Assembly: GCA_019309045.1 (NCBI GenBank)
Contig: JAFDGZ010000016.1
Coordinates: 1-44,875 of the forward strand
Direction: 5' to 3'
From: Deltaproteobacteria bacterium
GTDB lineage: Bacteria > Desulfobacterota > Syntrophobacteria > BM002
Length of the DNA stretch: 44,875 nt
In this document: in pieces, positions 33,647-39,456 of the stretch
Position numbering within the stretch: position 1 is the first letter of the stretch
Layout of the letters: each line of letters opens with the position of its first letter
The notes under the pieces: model-generated
Told to the model about the DNA's origin: nothing
Databases searched by the model: none
Seen by the model: only the letters and a program-made list of their open reading frames with translations
Program-made: the position numbers and the translations under genes

Positions 33647-34516
33647 TCAGACGCCGACCTCAAGAATTGTGGCAAGCCCCTGCCAGATCTTCTTTATCTC
33701 GTCGGCAACTCTGCCGTTGCTGTATTCCACTACAATTTTTTTCTGTACCAGGGCCCTGGTAACCACGGGATCGTACGGGATGAGCCCGAGGAGCTGGATG
33801 TTGTGCTCGTCGCAGTATGAGCGTATGGCTGCGGTCATGTCCTGATTGAGGTCATATTTGTTTACACATGCGGCAACAGGAATCTGGAAATGACCAGCCA
33901 GTTCAGCTACTCGTTTCATGTCATGCAGTCCCGAGAGGGTAGGCTCAGTTACAATGAGCACAAGACTTGTACCAGTCATGGCTGAAATTACCGGACAACC
34001 AATGCCAGGAGGGCCATCCACGATAATAAGCTTGTGGCCCTGCTCCTCGGCTAGAAGTTTGGCATTGTGTCGAACGATGGTCACTAACATGCCTGAATTC
34101 TCTTCAGCAATTCCCAACCTGGCATGGACGAATAGTCCGTAGTTGGTCTCAGAGATGAACCATTCACCGCAGATATTTTCCTGCATCTCGATTGCTGCAA
34201 CCGGACAAAAGTGAGCGCAAACCCCACAGCCTTCACAATCAATCTTGTCCACAATGTAATCATCACTTATGGCGTCGAACCTGCAAAGCTCCAGACATTC
34301 TCCGCATGCCGTACATACTGCAGCATCGATGTGGGCGGTATGTCCACCACGAAACAGCTCCTTTTTCTGAATAGTGGGCTCGAGGAGAATAAATAGGTCA
34401 GCAGCGTCTACATCAGCATCTGCCAACACTTTATCTTTGGCGAGCGCTGCAAAGGAGCCGGCAATTGAGGTCTTGCCTGTGCCGCCTTTGCCACTCAAGA
34501 TAACGAGTTCTTTCAC
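33647..34516 (-). CDS. MinD-family ATPase with inserted two-cluster ferredoxin domain (B)
   Basis: P-loop ATPase of 289 residues. Deviant Walker A LSGKGGTGKTS near the N terminus and GPPGIGCPVI in the Walker B region. Inserted at about residues 55-120 is a 2x[4Fe-4S] ferredoxin domain (CTACGECLELC and CEGCGVCAHFC). Related to the ORP-system ATPases of Desulfovibrio. GTG 34516 is chosen because GGAAGG precedes it and the upstream gene ends 4 bases earlier; a TTG at 34543 would overlap that gene. Tandem paralogue of the next gene. Probably couples ATP hydrolysis to Fe-S or mixed metal cluster handling. Confidence 0.9.
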   Translation of the reverse strand: MKELVILSGKGGTGKTSIAGSFAALAKDKVLADADVDAADLFILLEPTIQKKELFRGGHTAHIDAAVCTACGECLELCRFDAISDDYIVDKIDCEGCGVCAHFCPVAAIEMQENICGEWFISETNYGLFVHARLGIAEENSGMLVTIVRHNAKLLAEEQGHKLIIVDGPPGIGCPVISAMTGTSLVLIVTEPTLSGLHDMKRVAELAGHFQIPVAACVNKYDLNQDMTAAIRSYCDEHNIQLLGLIPYDPVVTRALVQKKIVVEYSNGRVADEIKKIWQGLATILEVGV

Positions 34517-34520
34517 TTGG

Positions 34521-35369
34521 CTACCTTCCGTTTCCACCGACAATTTTTTTTATGTGGCGATAGAGCTCCTGGAACTGCTCCTTATAGCTCGGCAGCACCT
34601 CAATAAGCATCCGGCCATAGGAATAGGCTTCTGCAATGCGTCGATCCTCTGGAATCGTCATGAGTACGGGTATCTTTTTGCTGCGGCAGAAATCAACAGT
34701 CTCCTGGTCGCTGCTGCCCGAGCGGTTTATCAATACGCCGGCAGGAATTTTTAGTTCAGCTACTACTTCAGCTGCCAGCTGCAGATCATTGAGGCCAAAC
34801 GGTGTGGGCTCGGTTACCAGAAGGCAGAAGTCGCTACCTTTTACAGCAGCAATAACAGGGCAAGACGTGCCTGGGGGCGCATCGACTATCACCACGTCGT
34901 GGTCCCCGGCAAGGTTGCGCGCCGCCTTGATTAGAGGAGGAGACATGGCTTCGCCCACACTTAGTCGGCCATGTACGAACTCAAGAGATTGACACTTGCC
35001 ATGTTCTAGGAGGCCGATGGGATGAGATTTTTCTGTGATGGCATCTTCTGGACATACCTTGGTGCAACCTCCACAGCCATGGCACAGTTCTGGAAAAGTG
35101 AGCACATTGTTATTAACCACAACAATGGCGCTGAAACGACAGATCCTGGCACACTCACCGCAAAAAGTACACTTCTCGAGGTCTATCAACGGCTTGGGTA
35201 CCTGGACTTCAACGGATTCGTGGATCTGTGGCTTCAAGAAAATATGGCTGTTGGGCTCCTCTACATCGCAGTCGATCAGCTGCACCTTAACTGTCAGGGA
35301 CATGGCCAGATTGGTAGCTACAGTAGTCTTTCCCGTGCCACCCTTACCGCTTGCCACAGCTATAATCAT
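34521..35369 (-). CDS. MinD-family ATPase with inserted two-cluster ferredoxin domain (A)
   Basis: P-loop ATPase of 282 residues, paralogous to the gene 4 bases downstream. Walker A ASGKGGTGKTT, DCDVEEPN switch region, ferredoxin insert with CTFCGECARIC and CHGCGGCTKVC (about residues 65-115), and DAPPGTSCPVI. Two such ATPases in tandem, with four-base spacing, point to a heterodimer and stoichiometric synthesis. In Desulfovibrio vulgaris a similar pair belongs to the ORP complex. The substrate, such as a metal cluster on a NifX-type carrier, is inferred. Confidence 0.92.
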   Translation of the reverse strand: MIIAVASGKGGTGKTTVATNLAMSLTVKVQLIDCDVEEPNSHIFLKPQIHESVEVQVPKPLIDLEKCTFCGECARICRFSAIVVVNNNVLTFPELCHGCGGCTKVCPEDAITEKSHPIGLLEHGKCQSLEFVHGRLSVGEAMSPPLIKAARNLAGDHDVVIVDAPPGTSCPVIAAVKGSDFCLLVTEPTPFGLNDLQLAAEVVAELKIPAGVLINRSGSSDQETVDFCRSKKIPVLMTIPEDRRIAEAYSYGRMLIEVLPSYKEQFQELYRHIKKIVGGNGR

Positions 35370-35426
35370 AATGGTTCTCTCCCGCCATCATTCGAGGGAA
35401 GCTGCTTTGCCAGTTTCTGCTACCGC

Positions 35427-36062
35427 CTAACGCCGCTCCTTTTCCAGTTGGCGTATTCTCTCATCGATTCTCTTCAACTGATCGCGAAGTTGGTCTTTTT
35501 GCCGTTTGAGTTCGTGCAGATCGATGCCGTAATCGGCTTGTCTCTCCTCCGAGGTGACGCCTCTGCCTTGCCTACGGCCCATGCCCATGCCACGACCCAT
35601 GCCCATGCCACGACCCATGCCACGACCCATGCCCATGCCACGACCCATGCCGCCACCCGCAGCGGGGCCGCTTCCTCGGCTAGTAGCAGAAGCTCCGCCC
35701 TCAGTGCCAAAATGGGCCTGCACCGATGGACCGGAAGCTTCCTGCAACTGCCCGCTTCTATACTGGTTCAGTGCTTCAGCAGCAGTACCGCTGGCCCCTA
35801 TGTATACCTTGAGCCCTGCAGCTGCCAGAGTATCCGCAGCATTTGGACCCACGTGTCCGGTAATCACTGCTTCAGCACCTGAATTTGCCACTAGTTGGGC
35901 GGCCTGGATGCCGGCCCCACCACTCAGCATAGCTGCCTTGTTTTCTATGATTTCGAATTCCCCAGTTGCCGAGTCTACAATCAGGAAACATGAACAGCGG
36001 CCAAAACGTTCGTCAAGTTGAGCATCCAAGCTTGGTCCGGTTGACGAAATTGCAATCTTCAT
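35427..36062 (-). CDS. NifX-type domain fused to Gly/Met/Arg repeat and coiled coil
   Basis: Protein of 211 residues. Residues 1-110 are a dinitrogenase Fe-Mo-cofactor biosynthesis (NifX/NafY) family domain (MKIAISSTGPSLDAQLDERFGRC, GAGIQAAQL, GHVGPNA). Residues about 130-165 are a low-complexity stretch made of GMGRG and GMGMGRG units. The C terminus (about 178-211) is a charged coiled coil. The tail layout imitates the DUF5320 protein in the same operon, as though the two had fused. Domain partners of this type bind labile metal clusters. Ribosome site AAGGAG. Confidence 0.88.
   Translation of the reverse strand: MKIAISSTGPSLDAQLDERFGRCSCFLIVDSATGEFEIIENKAAMLSGGAGIQAAQLVANSGAEAVITGHVGPNAADTLAAAGLKVYIGASGTAAEALNQYRSGQLQEASGPSVQAHFGTEGGASATSRGSGPAAGGGMGRGMGMGRGMGRGMGMGRGMGMGRRQGRGVTSEERQADYGIDLHELKRQKDQLRDQLKRIDERIRQLEKERR
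35578..35652 (-). repeat. Tandem 18-bp coding repeat in the NifX fusion gene
   Basis: Plus-strand unit CCCATGCCCATGCCACGA at 35578-35595, 35596-35613 and 35626-35643, with a 12-base shortened unit at 35614-35625 and a partial unit to 35652. The protein reads as GMGRGM repeats. Units are in multiples of three, so length change keeps the frame. Slippage may vary copy number between strains. Confidence 0.9.
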
Positions 36063-36130
36063 CTCCTCTCCTTTTTCGCGGGAGCGGCTAGTTCTGCCAA
36101 TAGTGGATCAGCACTTTTTCCTGTATTTCG

Positions 36131-36463
36131 TTAATGATCGCAAATATTCTGTCCAGTAATTAGACTGCCTTTCAGATACTGAGCAACCACTTCCTCTGGC
36201 GGTGCGCTGGGTGCGCCAATTTCTACTCTGATGCCCTTTTGAGCAAATAAATCGAGGGCCCTGCGGCCCATGCCCCCAGCAATGATCACTTCGACTCCCA
36301 AGTCGCTCAACCAACGAGGAAGAACTCCAGGTTCATGAGGAGGAGGAATGAGCAGTTCCTTGTTCTTTATCTGGCCATCATCCGCCTCTATAATGGCAAA
36401 CTGTTCACAATGTCCAAAATGGGGACAAAGTACACCTTGTGCGACTGGTACTGCAAATTTCAT
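36131..36463 (-). CDS. NifX/NafY-family protein
   Basis: Protein of 110 residues, one dinitrogenase Fe-Mo-cofactor biosynthesis family domain: MKFAVPVAQGVLCPHFGHCEQF, the segment VIIAGGMGRRALDLF, and IRVEIGA. CPHFGHC carries two Cys and two His that could bind a metal cluster. It resembles stand-alone ORP-like or NifX-like proteins of anaerobes. Second of three NifX-type genes in a row on the minus strand (36889 down to 35427), preceded by AAGGAGTG. No nif structural genes are present, so a role in nitrogenase is not supported. Confidence 0.88.
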   Translation of the reverse strand: MKFAVPVAQGVLCPHFGHCEQFAIIEADDGQIKNKELLIPPPHEPGVLPRWLSDLGVEVIIAGGMGRRALDLFAQKGIRVEIGAPSAPPEEVVAQYLKGSLITGQNICDH

Positions 36464-36526
36464 CGTCTACACTCCTTTCCTTTTTTATGTCCACTTCACA
36501 GAAATGCTGCCTGGTTTCAAGTAGCA

Positions 36527-36889
36527 TTAAGTCCAGTGTCCCTCGACATTGGGTTGGGAAGCTACCTGATACTTCCCATCGAGGTAGGCCTGCACTGCCT
36601 CTGAGATGCGACCACTAACCCCTGTTACCACCTTGATTCCTGTTGCCTGTAATGTCCTGAAGGCTTTGGGCCCACAATTGCCAGTGAGAACCACATCCGG
36701 CTTGGCACCAGCCAAGTTCTGGGCTGCCTGGATACCGGCTCCTTGAGGTAGATTCAGGTTCTGTCGATTTTCCACCAACTGCAACTCATTGGTGTCCGTG
36801 TCTATCACCAGAAAGTATTTAGCTCTGCCAAAACGCGGGTCCACTTCACCTTCCGGGTCCCTTTCCTGAGTGGTCACTGCTATGCGCAT
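36527..36889 (-). CDS. NifX/NafY-family protein
   Basis: Protein of 120 residues, one NifX-type domain: MRIAVTTQERDPEGEVDPRFGRAKYF, GAGIQAAQNL, LTGNCGPKAF and the VVTGVSG strand. The N terminus at 36889 follows GAGGAGGAGCT and is preferred over an upstream in-frame start at 37000, which would reach the Mrp gene. It resembles the NifX half of the fusion protein (NRQNLNLPQGAGIQAAQ versus NKAAMLSGGAGIQAAQ). Third NifX-type gene of the cluster, between the mrp gene and the CPHFGHC protein. Confidence 0.9.
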   Translation of the reverse strand: MRIAVTTQERDPEGEVDPRFGRAKYFLVIDTDTNELQLVENRQNLNLPQGAGIQAAQNLAGAKPDVVLTGNCGPKAFRTLQATGIKVVTGVSGRISEAVQAYLDGKYQVASQPNVEGHWT

Positions 36890-37006
36890 AGCTCCTCCTC
36901 TCTGAAGTGCTTCCCATCTGTTTGTTGCCTGACCTTTCCTAGCCAGCCCTCCTGAAAAGAGATGTGGGCAGGAGAAGATCCTTTGCCGCTTATCCAGCAA
37001 TGCCTC

Positions 37007-37915
37007 TCAATGCACTGCCGAAGATTTTTTCTGACCTGCAGATTCCATGGCCTCGATTACCTCTTGGGTGAGCTTTTCATATGCCTTTTTTGCCTCAGAA
37101 TCATGGTTTGCAGCCACAAAAGGTTCTCCACAGTCGCACTTCTCCACCACCTCAGGATCAATCGGTATGCGTCCCAGGAAAGGAACCCCCAGTTGTCTAG
37201 CGGCCTGCTCTCCACCGCCAATTTTGAAGAGATTGATTTTTTCGCCACAATGGGGGCAGATCAGACCGCTCATGTTTTCCACTATTCCCAGCACTGGGAT
37301 GTTCAACAGCCGGCTGAAATTGACAGCCTTTCGCGAATCCAGGAGAGCAACGTCCTGGGGAGTAGTGACGATTATTGAACCGTCTACATTCTTGATGAGA
37401 TTAGCAACACTGAGCGGTTCATCACCTGTGCCTGGTGGAAGGTCAATAAAGAGGAAGTCCAGATCGCCCCAACTGACATCTGCCAGGAACTGCTTGATTG
37501 CCGAGTGTTTCAGGGGCCCTCGCCAGACAATGGCTCGATCAGGATCGTGAGCAAGCAACCCCATCGATACCACGTGAAAGTTCTTGAAGACTTCTACAGG
37601 ATCTACGCCATCATCGTGTCCCACGAGTTGTCTCTCCTCGACACCCAGCATTTTGGGAACGTTAGGGCCGTGAATGTCAGCATCCAGTATTCCCACTCGA
37701 TAGTCGCGAAAAGCAAGAGAGGCAGCCAGGTTAGTAGCTACGGTACTCTTGCCAACGCCGCCTTTGCCGCTCATCACCATAATCTTATGGCGGATGTGAT
37801 AGAGCCTTTGCTCCAGCCTTTTTTGCTCGTGCGCTTCTTTTTCCTTGGCCGAACAACTACTGCCGCTCTCGCAACTGTCACAAGGTTTCTGTTCGTCACA
37901 CGCTTCTTTTTTCAT
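37007..37915 (-). CDS. Mrp/NBP35-type Fe-S carrier ATPase
   Basis: P-loop ATPase of 302 residues of the Mrp/NBP35 family, scaffold and carrier proteins for Fe-S clusters. An N-terminal Cys motif (CDEQKPCDSCESGSSC), deviant Walker A (SGKGGVGKST), Walker B region DLPPGTGDEPL, and the dimer-bridging CXXC in LICPHCGEK are all visible. The N-terminal cysteines are shared with Nbp35. A longer reading from 38014 is possible; ATG 37915 is chosen because AAGGAAGAG precedes it. In the ORP cluster of Desulfovibrio an Mrp protein is also present. Confidence 0.94.
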   Translation of the reverse strand: MKKEACDEQKPCDSCESGSSCSAKEKEAHEQKRLEQRLYHIRHKIMVMSGKGGVGKSTVATNLAASLAFRDYRVGILDADIHGPNVPKMLGVEERQLVGHDDGVDPVEVFKNFHVVSMGLLAHDPDRAIVWRGPLKHSAIKQFLADVSWGDLDFLFIDLPPGTGDEPLSVANLIKNVDGSIIVTTPQDVALLDSRKAVNFSRLLNIPVLGIVENMSGLICPHCGEKINLFKIGGGEQAARQLGVPFLGRIPIDPEVVEKCDCGEPFVAANHDSEAKKAYEKLTQEVIEAMESAGQKKSSAVH

Positions 37916-38040
37916 TTTTCTCTTCCTTGCCTTCTCAGTTGTTGATAAGAATCTGCCACTCGATATTCCATTCACAAATATGAGAACGACTAGTGAATCT
38001 GTCAAGGCAGCCAAAAGGTGTCGGCAGGGAGACAGGGAGT

Positions 38041-38067
38041 GGAGGGGTGAGATTCATTCACCCCTCC
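38041..38067 (-). other. Strong hairpin between the DUF5320 and mrp genes
   Basis: GGAGGGGTGA and TCACCCCTCC form a perfect 10-bp stem with a 7-nt loop, just beyond the stop codon of the DUF5320 gene (38077). No T-run follows on the minus strand. It may act as an mRNA-processing or stability element that sets different levels of the first two genes and the rest of the operon. Confidence 0.7.
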
Positions 38068-38076
38068 TGCTCAGCT

Positions 38077-38454
38077 TCACGAGCTTTGCTCAGTTTCTAA
38101 GCTCCCCAGTCTTTCTTCGATGGCGTCGAGCTCCTCTTTTAAAGCTGCCGCCTGCTCTTTGAGCATCACCATCTCGTCTTCCCTGGAATAAGGGGCTTGA
38201 TAGGCTCCCCAGGGTGCTATGGGACCCCGGTCCCACCAAGGGAAAAAGCCCCTAGCCCAGTAGCCGTAGCCCCAGCCCCGGCCCCTGCCTCGACCGAGAC
38301 CCAGGCCCCGACCCATACCCCAACCTCGACCGAGTCCACGACCCCGGCCCGGGCCGCCAAAGAAACGATAGGCTCCTCTCGGATTGCAAAGACCTCGGCC
38401 CCATCCGGTCATGGGTCCCATTCCAGCAGGTCCTGTTCTGTCAAGTCCTGGCAT
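38077..38454 (-). CDS. DUF5320-type Gly/Arg-rich protein with C-terminal coiled coil
   Basis: Protein of 125 residues beginning MPGLDRTGPAGMGPMTGWGRG, the recurrent N-terminal motif of DUF5320, followed by a Gly/Arg/Trp-rich stretch (residues about 34-75) and a coiled coil (about 90-125, LKEQAAALKEELDAIEERL). DUF5320 genes are common beside NifX-type genes in anaerobes; the function is unknown. AAAGGAGG gives a strong ribosome site. It lies 26 bases after the first NifX-type gene. The tail layout recurs in the NifX fusion protein at 35427-36062. Confidence 0.85.
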   Translation of the reverse strand: MPGLDRTGPAGMGPMTGWGRGLCNPRGAYRFFGGPGRGRGLGRGWGMGRGLGLGRGRGRGWGYGYWARGFFPWWDRGPIAPWGAYQAPYSREDEMVMLKEQAAALKEELDAIEERLGSLETEQSS

Positions 38455-38480
38455 ATGTCATCCCTCCTTTCTCGTGGTCG

Positions 38481-38843
38481 CTAATGCCTGCCACGAAAGC
38501 GTCTTCTCCGGTGTCTGCGTGGGCAGCACCCCATTCCCGGGGTCAGCTGTCCTGAGACGTAAGCTGCAAGGACTTCGTCAACTTCTCCAATAATGCCCCA
38601 TATCAGCTCTATGCCACGGCTGCGAAAAAGGTTTTGTAAAAAATGGTTCATGCCTCCAGTGATTACCAGCTCTACCCCCTGCCGGCGTAAAATGTCAGGC
38701 ACCTCATGAGGATACCGTCGGTTCATACTTAGAGTGTGACGACCAATTACTCGCCCCTCGTCGAGCTCCACAACCAATATCTCCTGGGTATATCCGAACC
38801 TGGGCGAAACCCTCGAGTCGTAAAGTGGGATGGCTATTTTCAT
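38481..38843 (-). CDS. NifX/NafY-family protein heading the sigma-54 operon
   Basis: Protein of 120 residues, one NifX-type domain: MKIAIPLYDSRVSPRFGYTQE, LVITGGMNHFLQNLF and LIWGIIGEVDEVL. The tail (CCPRRHRRRRFRGRH) is basic with a Cys pair. It is the first gene after the sigma-54 promoter (38904-38918), so it is the lead gene of the cluster. The ribosome site is weak (GAGGCG). Family members carry Fe-Mo, Fe-S or, in ORP, Mo-Cu-S clusters; the cargo here cannot be told. Confidence 0.88.
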   Translation of the reverse strand: MKIAIPLYDSRVSPRFGYTQEILVVELDEGRVIGRHTLSMNRRYPHEVPDILRRQGVELVITGGMNHFLQNLFRSRGIELIWGIIGEVDEVLAAYVSGQLTPGMGCCPRRHRRRRFRGRH

Positions 38844-38903
38844 TTGACGCCTCGCCGCCTCATGGCATCACCTCGCACTTCTTTTGAGTCACCAGCTTGA
38901 GAG

Positions 38904-38918
38904 GCAACGATTGTGCCA
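38904..38918 (-). promoter_or_regulatory. Sigma-54 (RpoN) promoter
   Basis: On the minus strand TGGCACAATCGTTGC, an exact TGGCAC-N5-TTGC core with correct GG-to-GC spacing of 10. Transcription should start near 38892, about 50 bases before the first NifX-type start codon (38843). Sigma-54 promoters need an ATP-dependent enhancer-binding activator; matching upstream sites are at 39007-39022 and 39064-39079. Confidence 0.85.
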
Positions 38919-38999
38919 GCCGAGGAAGTTTTGTATAACCTGCTAATATTATAGCCAATTATCAATTAAAGGGAAGAGGGTTGAATTACTGGCAGCGGT

Positions 39000-39022
39000 C
39001 TCCTTTGTTGCATAATTGCAAC
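39000..39022. promoter_or_regulatory. Left arm of mirror pair; palindrome GTTGCA-N4-TGCAAC (activator site)
   Basis: The arm contains GTTGCATAATTGCAAC (39007-39022), a dyad with 6-bp half-sites. Its centre is about 122 bases upstream of the predicted sigma-54 start. The whole 23-base arm recurs in reverse complement at 39064-39086 with one mismatch. Position and symmetry suit an enhancer-binding protein. Confidence 0.7.
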
Positions 39023-39063
39023 CTAAAATTAGAAATATCAGTTATTATGACTAATTAACATGC

Positions 39064-39086
39064 GTTGCAATAATGCAACAAAGGAG
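39064..39086. promoter_or_regulatory. Right arm of mirror pair; palindrome GTTGCA-N4-TGCAAC (activator site)
   Basis: The arm contains GTTGCAATAATGCAAC (39064-39079), the second copy of the dyad, about 179 bases upstream of the sigma-54 start and 57 bases centre-to-centre from the first. The flank CAAAGGAG mirrors CTCCTTTG of the left arm. Confidence 0.7.
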
Positions 39087-39261: not shown

Positions 39262-39456
39262 ATGACGCTCGAAAGAAAAGCTGGAATTGCCGTAGTATTT
39301 GGAGTACCAGCCATTGTTGGTTCGGGTCTGATGTGGCAGTTGGCCGGCAGTTGGCAGGTGGTTTTTGGCTACCTGGCCCTATTGGGATTTATCCTGGGTG
39401 CCTTTCTGGCCAATCCAGAACAGGAAATCTCAGCAAAAAAGCAAGAACAGCACTGA
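39262..39456 (+). CDS. Small two-helix membrane protein
   Basis: Protein of 64 residues with two predicted membrane helices (about 8-26 and 32-50: IAVVFGVPAIVGSGLMWQL and VVFGYLALLGFILGAFLA) and a charged tail EQEISAKKQEQH. No family recognised. The start is supported by CGGAGGA 8 bases before ATG. It is divergent from the ORP-like operon and shares its upstream region, so coregulation is possible. Confidence 0.65.
   Translation: MTLERKAGIAVVFGVPAIVGSGLMWQLAGSWQVVFGYLALLGFILGAFLANPEQEISAKKQEQH

Follow-up and report, generated by a model that had tools for sequence, protein, structure and literature searches.

Two palindromes of the form GTTGCA-N4-TGCAAC, located in the window (the whole analysed stretch of 44,875 bases), very likely act as a twin enhancer of an ORP/MinD/Mrp operon, where they would be bound by the orthologue, encoded on contig C135, of activators of the DVU2106 type, which we take to be those named OrpR, with a candidate IHF-like bend site at -56. 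The original prediction had regarded the palindromes as enhancer sites of a sigma-54 activator, and this is supported by the single-copy nature of the 87-base unit containing them and by the retention of the motif in orthologous control regions. The features of the control region and the operon are listed in Table 1.

Table 1. Features of the predicted enhancer, the promoter and the surrounding genes, with positions in the window
Feature	Position	Strand	Remarks
Divergent 64-aa ORF, membrane-like	39262..39456	+	Good ribosome-binding site
AAAGGAG, outer flank of distal palindrome	39080..39086	.	Mirror of 39000-39006; lacking in relatives
Promoter-distal palindrome GTTGCAATAATGCAAC	39064..39079	.	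Centre ~-179; predicted second activator dimer site, 57 bp from proximal
Promoter-proximal palindrome GTTGCATAATTGCAAC	39007..39022	.	Centre ~-122; predicted activator dimer site; kept in L078, L080 and L081
CTCCTTT, outer flank of proximal palindrome	39000..39006	.	Mirrored at 39080-39086; lacking in relatives
IHF-like site TATTAGCAGGTTA	38936..38948	-	~-56; one base off WATCAR-N4-TTR
Sigma-54 promoter (-24/-12) TGGCACAATCGTTGC	38904..38918	-	Plus-strand reading GCAACGATTGTGCCA; TGGCAC-N5-TTGC
First operon gene, Nitro_FeMo-Co (orange-protein-like) domain protein, 120 aa	38481..38843	-	Pfam PF02579
DUF5320 protein, 125 aa	38077..38454	-	Pfam PF17253
Mrp/NBP35-type (NUBPL) iron-sulfur carrier ATPase, 335 aa	37007..38014	-	Pfam PF10609
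Nitro_FeMo-Co domain protein	36527..37000	-	Pfam
Nitro_FeMo-Co domain protein	36131..36463	-	Pfam
Nitro_FeMo-Co plus DUF5320 protein	35427..36062	-	Pfam
MinD-like ATPase with inserted 4Fe-4S ferredoxin domain	34521..35369	-	Pfam
Second MinD-like ATPase with ferredoxin domain	33647..34543	-	Pfam

From the position of the sigma-54 element, transcription is predicted to start near 38892; the palindrome centres then lie at distances of about 122 and 179 bases on the upstream side, as originally claimed. Behind the promoter, eight consecutive genes (33647-38843) were assigned ORP/MinD/Mrp content from their Pfam matches. No sigma-54 element was found on the side of the divergent 64-aa ORF, which sits where relatives have the regulator gene. 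Further along the same contig (6406-11503), genes for a respiratory nitrate reductase-like beta subunit and a molybdopterin alpha subunit (narHG-like) were observed.

Both palindromes named in the original prediction were located (at 39007-39022 and 39064-39079), with 57 bases from start to start. Shuffling the window 200 times with a first-order Markov model did not yield the motif once, compared to the two observed copies. Across the 3.9 Mb assembly the perfect 12-base motif was detected only at the two window sites, and the whole genome contains a single case in which relaxed forms of the palindrome and of the sigma-54 element lie 70-100 bases apart. The other seven genomic TTGCA-N4-TGCAA matches had no sigma-54 element placed downstream, and a single target is therefore likely in this genome.

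For comparative analysis, a search for the MinD-type protein covered sixty relatives, and the surrounding loci were then extracted. Three genomes of the same family, but of a genus other than that of the window (L080, L081 and L078), carried the operon with the same gene order, preceded by the palindrome pair with a spacing of 57, 57 and 58 bases and with centres at -120.5/-177.5, -121.5/-178.5 and -121.5/-179.5, respectively. The motif, whose presence in orthologous control regions had been proposed as a check, is thus found at the same position and spacing in these three relatives. In a four-way alignment with the window, both palindromes and the TGGCAC-N5-TTGC element of the promoter formed invariant column runs, and the intervening and flanking sequence had diverged. 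The gene divergent from the operon in L080, L081 and L078 encodes a sigma-54 enhancer-binding protein 74-75% identical to the C135 protein.

On the far side of this regulator gene, a single TTGCA-N4-TGCAA together with a sigma-54 promoter was observed at L080:13606-13780 and L078:1159-1321. The L080 stretch also contains a consensus IHF site at -56 and lies ahead of a gene for a response regulator-PAS-Ser/Thr kinase, which may be a second target there. The orthologue of this kinase gene in the genome of the window (contig C68) has neither the site nor the promoter.

The block at -56 reads TATTAG-N4-TTA in the window and a perfect-consensus TATCAA-N4-TTA in L080 and L078 at the same offset. An IHF-like site between enhancer and promoter was accordingly present in three of the four genomes (with one mismatch in that of the window) and absent from the fourth; a strict match to the IHF consensus would be expected by chance in 1-2% of such stretches. 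The genome of the window also has genes for RpoN and for five members of the IHF/HU family.

That the activator gene lies outside the window had been stated in the original prediction, and the OrpR-like orthologue was located on contig C135 (L116, G000:C135:2553-3914), unlinked from the operon, where its neighbours, as read from their translations, are an EamA-like transporter gene and a rubrerythrin-like gene. The C135 protein consists of a PAS domain, an AAA+ domain with an unusual GAFTDA loop and a Fis-type helix-turn-helix. The PAS cysteines (CX8CX3C) are invariant in 11 aligned ORP-linked activators, and OrpR is known for iron-sulfur sensing. A tree was built from 67 activator proteins, including 26 other activators tested from the genome of the window. 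The ORP-linked activators, among them the C135 protein, were split from these 26 with a support of 98/94, and the C135 protein grouped with its family relatives (100/100). By its place in this tree of 67 proteins the C135 protein is orthologous to the ORP-linked activator group; in a scan of the named genomes with the regulator alignment, D. vulgaris was absent among the matches listed. Two observations count against the C135 protein as the regulator of the operon: its gene is not adjacent to the operon in the genome of the window, as it is in the three relatives, and no GTTGCA-N4-TGCAAC-type palindrome was found near the gene on its short contig.

To relate the site to the regulator, loci were grouped by the recognition helix of the regulator, either TLWRK (n=12) or only other helices (n=21). 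GTTGC-N6-GCAAC was the commonest gapped palindrome in the control regions of the TLWRK loci in an unbiased search, with 12 sites at no more than one mismatch compared to 0.45 expected, distributed over 8 of the 12 loci. The site was found in none of the 21 loci with other helices only (Fisher p = 3.6e-5, with related loci treated as independent). Counting against the enhancer reading, the site was missing from the intergenic stretches tested in the remaining four TLWRK loci. Site-positive loci span several families of the phylum, and in a further locus (L094, family f3) the site precedes a sigma-54 element with no regulator of this kind linked to it. Pairs outside the family of the window are usually 31-33 bases apart (L094, L257, L264 and L273-L275), which is about three helical turns. 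The spacing of 57-58 bases was seen mainly in the family of the window, and a distance of 57 bp does not correspond to an integral number of helical turns, which also counts against the enhancer reading.

No TTGCA palindrome was detected in the tested operon control regions of the loci with DKNTLRRK-type regulators (L082, L084-L088, L093, L251-L256, L260-L262 and L287), and a search for the site that DKNTLRRK and TKDTLRRIL regulators recognise returned none. We lean towards the view, based on these sequence patterns, that the ORP-linked redox activators switched their DNA specificity and that in the genome of the window the regulator also left the operon and lost its own operator. The TLWRK set would then apparently read twin GTTGCA-N4-TGCAAC at a fixed spacing and the DKNTLRRK and TKDTLRRIL branches unrelated sites, while operon, promoter type and sensor apparently stayed unchanged. 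In Desulfovibrio-like genomes of family f45 (L274:11110-12585, L275:11429-12964 and also L273:11868-13090), a second GAFTDA activator with the TLWRK helix was observed at the end of the MinD operon; behind it, twin GTTGC-N6-GCAAC-like sites with a spacing of 31-32 bases precede a gene for a cysteine-rich iron-sulfur (HdrC-like) protein.

The palindromes could also serve as the enhancer of another sigma-54 activator of this genome, of which L067 on contig C33 is an example. The genome has 38 PF00158 matches, the OrpR orthologue is unlinked here, and L067 carries a PRTTLWRKMKKYGL helix that resembles the C135 recognition helix; that L067 also ends in a TTLWRKMKKYGL helix counts against assigning the sites to the C135 protein. 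We nevertheless consider this unlikely, since a regulator of the C135 type adjoins the twin sites in all three same-family relatives and the site tracks this type of regulator across families. The same association of the site with the helix-turn-helix of the linked sigma-54 activator argues against a CRP/FNR-type regulator acting on the palindromes as a repressor or co-regulator of the promoter. FNR-type boxes consist of 5-base half-sites separated by 4 bases, a geometry that TTGCA-N4-TGCAA resembles. However, the sites lie at -122 and -179 upstream of a sigma-54 promoter and the genome has no further promoter-linked copies, which makes a CRP/FNR-type regulator quite improbable.

The palindromes are part of longer inverted arms of 23 nt with one mismatch (96% complementary) and 41 nt between, which were confirmed at 39000-39022 and 39064-39086 as the only inverted repeat of 23 nt with one mismatch and a loop of up to 60 in the window. 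A single strand of the 87-base unit folds strongly (z = -8.1) because of these arms. The outer CTCCTTT/AAAGGAG flanks, which add seven matching bases, would match a priori in about one of 16,000 cases (4^-7), and both this and the fold would be in line with the full mirror arms acting as a cruciform or hairpin structure, or as an extended site. The four-way alignment, however, revealed that the outer 7-base flanks differ in L078, L080 and L081. They are therefore a local feature of the window, and the mirror arms are at most a feature of the lineage; a functional role of the 23-base arms was rejected on these grounds and appears very improbable. Of the arms as a unit, only the pair of 16-base palindromes is thus conserved and the extra seven bases per arm are not, and judged by this conservation the functional unit is the palindrome pair without the 23-base extension. 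The mirrored flanks may have arisen because the two sites were recently homogenised. The original prediction named as its main alternative a non-autonomous mobile element (MITE), whose terminal inverted repeats the arms would be. The unit shares with MITE and IS ends the inverted arms around a short AT-rich middle (here 41 bases, with the fold noted above), but a mobile element was rejected and has next to no probability because the 87-base unit occurs once in the 3.9 Mb genome, has no match in phage or plasmid collections, and holds palindromes whose place and spacing are shared by three other species despite diverged surroundings.

The preferred reading, a twin enhancer read by the C135 orthologue, was compared to known systems. 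Tandem NtrC sites in glnA-type enhancers are two dyads, bound by a Fis-HTH activator, that lie over 100 bp upstream and nucleate oligomer assembly. Two dyad sites at such a distance upstream of the promoter, with a Fis-HTH protein as the predicted activator, are likewise seen here, whereas the sequence differs and the spacing is 57 bp, with pairs of the same motif 31-33 bp apart in other families. A closer counterpart in gene content is the D. vulgaris orp system, whose transcription, according to one study, needs sigma-54, the activator DVU2106 and IHF, with IHF sites between enhancer and promoter (PMC3897727). DVU2106, the activator of the D. vulgaris orp operons, is listed with GAFTDA in another (PMC4641369). 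The two systems share the ORP/MinD/Mrp gene content, sigma-54 promoters, a one-component activator with GAFTDA and, further upstream, palindromes as known or predicted activator sites (at -131 and -88 in D. vulgaris); the IHF sites that D. vulgaris has in the interval from enhancer to promoter may have a counterpart in the IHF-like block at -56. The open text of the two studies (PMC4641369, PMC3897727) gives no sequence for the D. vulgaris OrpR motif. The system described here differs in comprising one operon in one direction, a site pair at a fixed 57 bp and an unlinked regulator, and its recognition helix is HRSTLWRKMKK, compared to TKDTLRRIL in the regulators of D. vulgaris-like gene arrangements (L273-L275).

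The sequence itself shows the sites, the promoter, the operon, an orthologous regulator, a conserved geometry and a link between site and recognition helix; binding, activation, looping or bending and redox sensing are inferred from the family to proceed as follows. Dimers of the OrpR-type activator would bind each GTTGCA-N4-TGCAAC via the Fis-type helix-turn-helix, and once both palindromes are filled the AAA+ domains would assemble. A DNA bend at about -56, probably introduced by an IHF/HU-family protein, would bring the activator to the sigma-54 polymerase at 38904-38918, where ATP hydrolysis by the activator would open the closed polymerase complex and allow transcription from 38843 to 33647. 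The PAS domain, with its three invariant cysteines, probably sets the activity by redox or iron-sulfur state.

Taken as predicted from sequence, this is very probably a known kind of sigma-54 orp control with a newly identified binding sequence and an activator gene that now lies in another part of the genome. It is distinguished by a spacing fixed at 57 bases, by a DNA specificity that apparently changed among the regulators of the family, and by a regulator gene no longer linked to its operon in this genome. A concrete DNA site can now be assigned, as a prediction, to a subgroup of OrpR-type activators, which provides a site-to-helix code that can be tested (TLWRK paired with GTTGCA-N4-TGCAAC) and would extend the orp control circuit beyond Desulfovibrio. 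Since the orp genes are poorly understood anaerobic iron-sulfur machinery, knowing their switch may help to find out when they are used.
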